Source: Azotobacter vinelandii CA
GTDB taxonomy: Bacteria; Pseudomonadota; Gammaproteobacteria; Pseudomonadales; Pseudomonadaceae
Direction of reading: 5' to 3'
DNA length: 64,000 nucleotides
Assembly (NCBI RefSeq): GCF_000380335.1
Contig: NC_021149.1
Span: 62,001-126,000 of the forward strand
The notes under the pieces were generated by a model, which was not told the origin of the DNA, ran no database searches, and worked only from the letters and a program-made list of their open reading frames with translations. Of this stretch, positions 2,850 to 55,343 are shown piece after piece (positions within the stretch are counted from its first letter, which is position 1; each line of letters begins with the position of its first letter). The position numbers and the translations under genes are program-made.

Positions 2850-2897
2850 GCGCCGGGCGCCGGGCGGCGGGCAAGATGGAAGCGGAGGATTCCGGGC

Positions 2898-2939
2898 AAA
2901 AAAAACCCGGACTTCGTGTGGGGGAGGAAGAAGCCCGGG
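2898..2939 (-). terminator. Intrinsic terminator of the ErsA-like sRNA
   Basis: Read on the minus strand, CCCGGGCTTC (2939–2930) pairs with GAAGTCCGGG (2915–2906) with one G·T wobble, a 14-nt loop and then eight T residues (2905–2898). This is a textbook rho-independent terminator. It can end both the sRNA and read-through from polA. Confidence 0.9.
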
Positions 2940-3024
2940 GTTCAACTCCGGACCCCGAAGAGTCCGAATATCTGCCAACACTTAACACAACAAGGAGCAT
3001 CGAGAGGCTTTTCAGCCAATCGTA
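2898..3024 (-). ncRNA. ersA: ErsA-like small regulatory RNA (Spot 42 position, downstream of polA)
   Basis: No ORF fits here. An AlgU-type promoter (3057–3030) and an intrinsic terminator (2939–2898) bound a transcript of about 127 nt, close to the ~132 nt of Pseudomonas ErsA. The RNA begins near TACGATTGGCTGAAAAGCC (a small GGCT/AGCC hairpin), has a U-rich unpaired middle, then GGACTC-TTCG-GGGTCC, a UUCG-capped hairpin, and the terminator stem. In Pseudomonas, ErsA lies next to polA, where E. coli has Spot 42, and is AlgU-dependent; it pairs with mRNAs such as algC in envelope-stress and biofilm control. Position, promoter type and size agree. The 5' end is estimated. Confidence 0.82.
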
Positions 3025-54188: not shown

Positions 54189-54767
54189 ATGACCATCAGA
54201 ACCTTCCAGGGCATCACCCCGATACTGGGCGAGCGGGTCTTCGTCGACCCCGCTTCCGTGGTCCTCGGTAACGTGGCGATCGGCGACGACAGCTCGATCT
54301 GGCCGCAGGTGGCGATCCGCGGCGACGTGCACCGCATCCGCATCGGCGCGCGCACCAGCATCCAGGACGGCAGCGTGCTGCACGTCACCCATGCCGGGCC
54401 GTTCAACGCGGAAGGCCACCCGCTGGAGATCGGCGACGAGGTCACCGTCGGCCACAAGGTGACCCTGCACGGCTGCCGCATCGGCAACCGTGTGCTGGTC
54501 GGCATGGGCGCCATCGTGTTGGACGGCGCGGTGGTCGAGGACGAGGTGATCGTCGGCGCCGGCAGCCTGGTGCCGCCGGGCAAGACGCTGGAAAGCGGCT
54601 TCCTGTACGTCGGCAGCCCGGTGAAGCAGGTGCGCCCGCTGAACGACAAGGAGCGCGGCTTCTTCCGCTACAGCGCCGACAACTACGTGCGCCTGAAGGA
54701 CCAGCACCTGGCCGAGCACTACCTGCCGCTGAAGGAGCCGCACCTGCTGGCCGATCACGAAGACTGA
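54189..54767 (+). CDS. Gamma-carbonic anhydrase-like protein
   Basis: 192 residues. A left-handed beta helix is read from the hexapeptide pattern (VVLGNVAIGDDSSIWPQVAIRGD). Zinc ligands: His in VLHVTHAGPFN and the pair in TVGHKVTLHGCRIGNR. It occurs next to prlC in Pseudomonas. The C-terminus is slightly longer than usual (DKERGFFRYSADNYVRLKDQH). Actual carbonic anhydrase activity is not certain. Confidence 0.92.
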   Translation: MTIRTFQGITPILGERVFVDPASVVLGNVAIGDDSSIWPQVAIRGDVHRIRIGARTSIQDGSVLHVTHAGPFNAEGHPLEIGDEVTVGHKVTLHGCRIGNRVLVGMGAIVLDGAVVEDEVIVGAGSLVPPGKTLESGFLYVGSPVKQVRPLNDKERGFFRYSADNYVRLKDQHLAEHYLPLKEPHLLADHED

Positions 54768-54789: not shown

Positions 54790-54807
54790 TGTAGGTCATG
54801 GCTTACA
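54790..54807 (+). promoter_or_regulatory. GacA box
   Basis: TGTAGGTCATGGCTTACA matches the GacA upstream activating sequence TGTAAG-N6-CTTACA with one mismatch. Its centre is about 66 bp before the predicted RNA start, the usual distance for rsmY/rsmZ genes. Confidence 0.85.
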
Positions 54808-54828
54808 TGGATTCGGGGACTTGTCCAC

Positions 54829-54857
54829 TTACCGGTCGCCGGAGGGCTCCTTAATAT
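54829..54857 (+). promoter_or_regulatory. Sigma-70 promoter of the RsmZ-like RNA
   Basis: TTACCG (54829–54834), 17-bp spacer and TAATAT (54852–54857). The predicted start is near 54864. It is preceded by the GacA box. Confidence 0.65.
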
Positions 54858-54863
54858 CGCCCC

Positions 54864-55003
54864 TGTGCCGACGGATCGGTACCGGCTGACCAGGATGGCG
54901 GCCAAGGACTTCGCAGGAGAGCGATCCCATCAGGACGATGACTCAACGGAAGAAAGGCAGTATTCCGCGAAGAACGGCGAGAGCGATCCTCTCGCCGTTT
55001 TTT
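54864..55003 (+). ncRNA. RsmZ-like regulatory RNA (CsrA/RsmA titrating)
   Basis: About 140 nt with six GGA motifs (54873, 54893, 54906, 54916, 54933, 54948). Two are displayed in short hairpin loops: TCGC-AGGAGA-GCGA and CATC-AGGAC-GATG. It ends at an intrinsic terminator (AACGGCGAGAG … CTCTCGCCGTT then T6, 54973–55003). With GacA box and promoter, this is the canonical design of RsmZ, which sequesters RsmA/CsrA. Azotobacter carries several rsmZ copies; Pseudomonas usually one near rpoS, so this location is worth noting. Confidence 0.86.
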
Positions 55004-55043: not shown

Positions 55044-55343
55044 TCAGTCCGTGAGCGGAGCCTCCTCGGGCGCCGGTGCGGGAGTCGGGGATGGTTCGCC
55101 GCGCCGACTGCCGCCGTCGTTGCGCTGGTAGATGATCTTCCTGGTGCCGCCGTCGCAACTGCCGACCACCAGGTTGCGGTCGGTCACTTCCGCGTTGGGC
55201 ACTATCTCCAGAGTGTAGGAAGTCACGCCGGCGGCCTGGATCTTCACTTCGATCTCTTCCTTGAGTTCCTCGCAGGGCTTGATCGCCGCCAGCAGCGGGG
55301 TGCTCAACAGGCACAGGGAGAGGACGAGACAGCTTCGGTTCAT
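55044..55343 (-). CDS. DUF1161 family periplasmic protein
   Basis: 99 residues from ATG 55343, signal peptide about 1–19 (LVLSLCLLSTPLLA). DUF1161 core: KPCEELKEEIEVKIQAAGVTSYTLEIV and VVGSCDGGTRKIIYQR, with the conserved Cys pair. The Pro/Glu-rich tail is variable. It overlaps the aminopeptidase gene by 4 bp and faces the RsmZ-like RNA. Confidence 0.88.
   Translation of the reverse strand: MNRSCLVLSLCLLSTPLLAAIKPCEELKEEIEVKIQAAGVTSYTLEIVPNAEVTDRNLVVGSCDGGTRKIIYQRNDGGSRRGEPSPTPAPAPEEAPLTD

Follow-up and report, generated by a model that had tools for sequence, protein, structure and literature searches.

Positions 54864 to 55003 (plus strand) of the window, by which we mean the whole 64,000-nucleotide stretch of Azotobacter vinelandii CA contig NC_021149.1 analysed here, very probably encode a small RNA of the RsmZ family that is activated by GacA and sequesters RsmA, and that belongs to a set of about eight copies in this genome that look intact; we put the probability of this reading at roughly 0.93. 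Members of the RsmZ family are small RNAs that sequester RsmA, whereby messages blocked by this protein are released. An initial annotation, made from the letters of the sequence alone, had proposed an RsmZ-type RNA here and suggested a covariance search and a count of genome copies as checks. The covariance search of the 64-kb window with RF00166 (PrrB/RsmZ) returned this interval at 75.3 bits against a gathering score of 44, and the match spans the full model (positions 1-133) with an E value of 3e-15 over the whole window, which rules out a chance match. Copy count, conserved synteny and covariation, given below, all agree with the family match. RsmY (RF00195) gave no match at gathering score in the same 64 kb, and a phage origin is not supported, as the region had no match in 50,697 phage records. 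The features of the locus are as follows.

54189 to 54767, plus strand: upstream co-directional gene of the gamma-carbonic-anhydrase family (YrdA-like; PF00132)
54790 to 54807, plus strand: GacA box (upstream activating sequence), one mismatch to TGTAAGN6CTTACA, centre at about -66 from the RNA start
54852 to 54857, plus strand: -10-like TAATAT, read from the sequence, ending six bases short of the Rfam start
54864 to 55003, plus strand: RsmZ-type small RNA, about 140 nt (RF00166; fold z of -3.3; covariation over 41 distinct copies)
54865 to 54882, plus strand: hairpin 1, loop GGA at 54873 (fold and covariation; 4 of 7 pairs changed on both sides)
54884 to 54903, plus strand: hairpin 2, loop GGA at 54893 (fold and covariation)
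54906 to 54908, plus strand: GGA in the stretch from hairpin 2 to hairpin 3 (a linker by the Rfam consensus, but paired in the minimum-energy fold)
54911 to 54924, plus strand: hairpin 3, loop GGA at 54916 (fold and covariation)
54928 to 54940, plus strand: hairpin 4, loop GGA at 54933 (fold and covariation; 99.4% of cells paired)
54948 to 54950, plus strand: sixth GGA, 5' of the terminator (paired in the minimum-energy fold)
54969 to 55003, plus strand: intrinsic terminator, 15-pair stem and U run (minimum-energy fold; conserved in A. salinestris)
55044 to 55343, minus strand: convergent downstream gene, DUF1161 (PF06649, 82.5 bits)

RNA structure and covariation across copies

The predicted fold of the window RNA has an energy of -57.2 kcal/mol against a mean of -44.4 for shuffled sequences (z of -3.3), and only one of 200 shuffles was as stable. 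It contains exactly six GGA motifs (54873, 54893, 54906, 54916, 54933 and 54948), as had been annotated, although four of them and not two, as first thought, are held in hairpin loops. It is this placement that is rare: six GGA motifs occurred in 355 of 1000 dinucleotide shuffles and four loop GGAs in just one of the 1000, while among 1826 140-mers taken from the window every 70 bases on both strands, 55 had at least six GGA motifs and none of these 55 had four in loops. Six is at the low end of the range for the eight A. vinelandii copies over the cut-off (6 to 9). The annotated intrinsic terminator is borne out by the fold, its stem forming the last 35 nt of the RNA and running into the U tract. 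A simple terminator scan missed it, though it is plain in the fold, we think because the A's of the terminator pair with the U run.

Across 41 distinct copies, 85.0% of cells were found to be paired and 17 of 37 pairs showed change on both sides. The covariation score of 0.200 was reached by none of 500 shuffles, and controls in which the 3' partners were slid scored 0.063 to 0.085, a comparison in which the structure has an advantage, having been drawn from the window copy. Among the five measures used, the one counting further pair types was reached by 60 of 500 shuffles. Several pairs are weak: the outermost and innermost pairs of hairpin 1 (unpaired in 27 of 39 and 20 of 41 cells, respectively), and the outer two and the innermost pairs of the terminator, the last of which fails in 35 of 41.

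Upstream control region

The GacA box that had been annotated upstream of the RNA is present as TGTAGGTCATGGCTTACA, starts at -74 from the RNA and deviates at one position from TGTAAGN6CTTACA, the GacA box consensus. Taken alone the box is weak evidence: the window holds two matches at no more than 2 mismatches where 0.33 would be expected, and two or more were also present in 5 of 100 shuffles. Its position is stronger evidence, since 34 of the 42 RsmZ matches that we found in Azotobacter genomes have a box of at least 10/12 starting 74 to 83 nt before the RNA. Within 200 nt upstream such a box was found for 36 of the 42, two of these boxes starting near -180 instead, and in six of the 42 the best box reaches only 7 to 9 of 12, including the copy at genome position 385522 that a primer ties to RsmZ1 (see below).

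A sigma-70 promoter at the right distance had also been annotated. This stands as regards the -10-like TAATAT, but a recognisable -35 is lacking, as the best candidate (TTACCG at 54829-54834, spacing 17) is a poor match and a sigma-70 consensus scan found no site. The A. salinestris counterpart has its box in the same place, also starting at -74, and a -10 of TACTAT with one base changed from TAATAT; many other Azotobacter copies carry a GTAGATT-type -10 that is unlike either.

Neighbouring genes and history of the site

The upstream neighbour belongs to the gamma-carbonic-anhydrase family, in keeping with the annotated location of the RNA. In addition to PF00132 it matched the PDB entries 3r1w (carbonic anhydrase, E of 4e-82) and 3tio (YrdA, E of 5.5e-75), and it scored 153.8 bits with NCBIfam NF050158, below the cut-off of 250. 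In A. salinestris the same gene is immediately followed by the RNA, whose hairpins, loop GGAs, box and terminator hardly differ from those of the window; drift is seen in the linker between hairpin 4 and the terminator and in both outer flanks, and about 280 bp past the terminator do not align to the window. A. beijerinckii and a fourth Azotobacter genome have the same gene order with the RNA absent, leaving 63 bp and 27 bp, respectively, between the aligned blocks versus about 303 in the window; downstream of the gene, the A. beijerinckii genome has 420 bases in common with a locus of A. beijerinckii DSM 378. This provides a clean presence/absence site for one RsmZ copy. In a tree built from the flanking DNA, A. 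vinelandii and A. salinestris fall together (113 sites versus 70 and 29 for the other two splits; bootstrap 100), so that one gain or one loss suffices, and being unrooted the tree does not separate the two; by plain identity the nearest to A. salinestris is the fourth genome (91.7%, versus 89.0% for A. vinelandii).

The location of the window copy reflects the history of the lineage, and nothing here ties the RNA to gamma-carbonic-anhydrase function. That RsmZ might be a general feature of such genes was considered and rejected using a covariance model, R1, which we built from all 42 Azotobacter RF00166 matches with none dropped. R1 was run on 84 sources, comprising the best 80 of 399 confirmed gamma-carbonic-anhydrase loci (A. 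beijerinckii and 79 others, with flanks of 3 kb or, in some cases, less), the window and three further loci, the A. salinestris one among them. Only the window (105.6 bits) and A. salinestris (115.5 bits), whose copies are both part of the R1 training set, scored high; the next score was 18.1 bits, and none of the 80 loci exceeded 15.2.

Elsewhere in the window, positions 2890-3000 of the minus strand match the ErsA (Pseudomon-1) RNA (RF01719) at 102.6 bits.

Copy number and other rsm loci

The single-contig A. vinelandii genome (5,366,370 bp) contains nine RF00166 matches, eight of them over the cut-off, which bears out the earlier suggestion that the window RNA is one of several copies; the ninth is a weak copy split by a transposase-bearing insertion. 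Together the four Azotobacter genomes hold 42 matches, with 9 in A. vinelandii, 10 in A. beijerinckii, 8 in the fourth genome and 15 in A. salinestris, and the same four counts were obtained under the stricter filters of a family-wide comparison of 148 genomes. In that comparison the 144 other Pseudomonadaceae had 0 to 3 matches each (24 with none, 113 with one and 7 with two or three). Each of the four Azotobacter genomes possesses one CsrA gene. Our comparison also adds a contrast, 8 to 15 RsmZ matches per Azotobacter genome against 0 to 3 in the others with a single CsrA gene in each Azotobacter, and it poses the question of why there should be many sponges for one protein, which could be tested by stepwise removal of copies.

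The classical rsmZ of Pseudomonas adjoins rpoS, whereas the window copy does not, as had been pointed out. We also looked for a copy at the rpoS site itself and rejected it: rpoS is located at genome position 3912700, some 340 kb from the RF00166 match closest to it (4253268).

With R1 we found 46 places in the four Azotobacter genomes, only four of which are new because the other 42 are the training set; two of the four lie in A. vinelandii. At genome positions 4253268-4254587 an RsmZ with GacA box, promoter and hairpins is severed by about 1 kb from its terminator, and an R1 match at 4254461 appears to be the half with the terminator, separated from the weak copy at 4253268. The insert between the halves has open frames with a transposase domain (PF13358, DDE_3) and helix-turn-helix domains, and we take it to be an IS630-type element. 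A diverged RsmZ that is not among the RF00166 matches was detected at 1933827-1933961 (73.4 bits with R1), with a degraded GacA box (9/12) and 5 GGA motifs.

The RsmY locus of A. vinelandii (444798-445133) reads as a single RNA, about 336 nt long, that carries 22 GGA motifs and one terminator and is preceded by a GacA-box-like site (10/12) that starts 75 nt upstream. Its last 132 nt match RsmY over the Rfam cut-off and are preceded by two weaker pieces, and such weaker pieces beside the main RsmY match were seen in all four Azotobacter genomes. The RsmY1-2 named in the available passages of PMC7366521 may correspond to this locus.

Relatives of the window copy and possible dispersal

In a tree of the copies the window copy pairs with its A. 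salinestris counterpart at a local support of 0.85, and the two are joined (0.97) by a degenerate copy with a box at -77 that is carried on a 321.6-kb A. salinestris plasmid. The similarity between copies extends beyond the RNA itself: of 114 within-genome hits, 23 among the longest 30 in the list share a stretch that begins 79-108 nt ahead of the RNA and ends 4-27 bp beyond it, as exemplified by two A. beijerinckii copies with 95% identity over 263 bp. Other within-genome hits extend further, e.g. between copies on A. salinestris plasmids. About 20 bp after the terminator, a loose pattern like TTGCGCCGAAGAAAAGCGG is seen just after the U run in 34 of 42 copies, a pattern devised after viewing the copies and without a chance control; it is absent from the window copy and from its two relatives, the A. 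salinestris counterpart and the copy on the plasmid.

A blastn search of PLSDB returned eight plasmid records matching RsmZ, all from Azotobacter (two from A. salinestris and six from A. chroococcum) and 8 to 322 kb in size: CP045301, CP045303, CP010416, CP010417, CP010419, CP010420, CP066312 and CP066314. RsmZ-like DNA was found at 2 to 4 places in five of the eight, and plasmid typing classed one as conjugative and three as mobilizable. A PrrB/RsmZ RNA is mentioned for one of them, pAcX50b, in the available text of PMC4465626, and a plasmid-encoded CsrA homologue, RsmQ, is described in that of PMC9928087. Among the literature matches listed for plasmid-borne RsmZ, the available passages contained nothing on plasmid RsmZ as a sponge.

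Although speculative, and with the odds in our view somewhat against it, RsmZ might be a dispersing family in Azotobacter, whereby a unit of about 250 bp, which begins with the GacA box and ends 10-25 bp beyond the terminator, has repeatedly been copied to new chromosomal sites and to plasmids. The window copy would then be an insertion between the gamma-carbonic-anhydrase and DUF1161 genes that was gained before A. vinelandii and A. salinestris diverged, in their ancestor, and plasmids would add GacA-driven RsmA sponges to the circuit of their host. Only the few near-identical pairs support a copied unit, because the shared ends of diverged pairs may mark where selection ends; no terminal inverted repeats were seen by eye at the edges of the unit, and the window site could equally reflect a loss in the other two genomes.

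Alternative explanations

Two other accounts of the window RNA need to be weighed, both of which we consider very improbable. It could be mainly the 3' end of the gamma-carbonic-anhydrase message, in which case the capture of RsmA would follow the expression of that gene and not GacA. Gene and RNA are indeed co-directional, only 22 bases separate the stop codon from the box, and the scan found no terminator between them; on this account the RsmZ terminator may serve both. However, the same crude scan missed the RsmZ terminator too, the A. salinestris site keeps a GacA box at equal distance together with a similar -10, and A. beijerinckii and the fourth genome keep the gene without the RNA.

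Slightly less probable still is that the window copy is a decaying duplicate without function. With many further copies in the genome one might be dispensable, the site is without the RNA in two Azotobacter genomes, another A. vinelandii copy has been split by an insertion, and the closest further relative, on the A. salinestris plasmid, is degenerate. Against decay, hairpins, loop GGAs, box and terminator have stayed near-identical in A. salinestris, whereas drift has affected the outer flanks and the linker that leads from hairpin 4 to the terminator.

Proposed action and comparison with known systems

We retain the reading of a GacA-activated, RsmA-sequestering RNA, the action of which, going by what is known of the family, would be as follows. 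Phosphorylated GacA would bind the box at 54790-54807 and activate a promoter giving transcription from about 54864 on, so that an RNA of 140 nt would be made that ends at its own terminator. Its loop GGAs would bind RsmA dimers; RsmA, the only protein of CsrA type that this genome encodes, would thereby be drawn off its target messages and leave them free.

According to the available text of PMC12923157, induction of RsmZ1-7 and RsmY in A. vinelandii needs GacA, and RsmA binds RsmZ1 and RsmZ2; the available text of PMC4824345 likewise has GacA activating the rsmZ-Y genes. The same two sources, as far as their accessible passages go, name the algD, phbR and arpR messages as RsmA targets, and those of PMC8988225 report differing alginate phenotypes for single rsm mutants. 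A. vinelandii is known for its set of RsmZ RNAs, which take part in controlling how alginate, PHB and alkylresorcinols are synthesised. The numbering of the set varies in the passages available: the introduction of PMC11330419 lists RsmZ1 to Z8 and its results section RsmZ1-7, PMC12350332 has both rsmZ1-8 and rsmZ1-7, and PMC7366521 lists RsmZ1-7 and RsmY1-2.

Primers offer a partial link between the published names and genome positions. RSMZ1-2R, as printed in the accessible part of PMC4824345, has one exact match at genome position 384555, which is roughly 950 bp away from the copy at 385522. The other three Azotobacter genomes have no place for it even when 2 mismatches are allowed. The second RsmZ1 primer has no place in the genome with fewer than 2 mismatches and three places with 2, all far from the copy at 385522. 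The window copy is probably one of the published RsmZ set, and most likely is already in print, because the eight copies over the cut-off fit RsmZ1-8. Multiplicity of RsmZ in A. vinelandii is already known, and the window copy is ordinary for the species.

Among known systems, the nearest to the window RNA are the RsmZ1-7 (RsmZ1-8) RNAs of A. vinelandii, which are of the same family; the genome has eight copies over the cut-off. RsmX, RsmV and RsmW are described in the available passages of PMC7366521 as further RNAs that sequester CsrA/RsmA, but by the same description RsmV and RsmW are set apart in that they do not depend on GacA and seem to be restricted to P. aeruginosa. RsmY (RF00195) shares its Rfam clan and proposed action with the window RNA. 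With RsmZ/PrrB of Pseudomonas (RF00166) the window RNA has in common the covariance model, the GGA hairpins, the terminator and the GacA box, the last lying at -74 in the window copy, as against the good box near -180 in two of the 42 Azotobacter matches.
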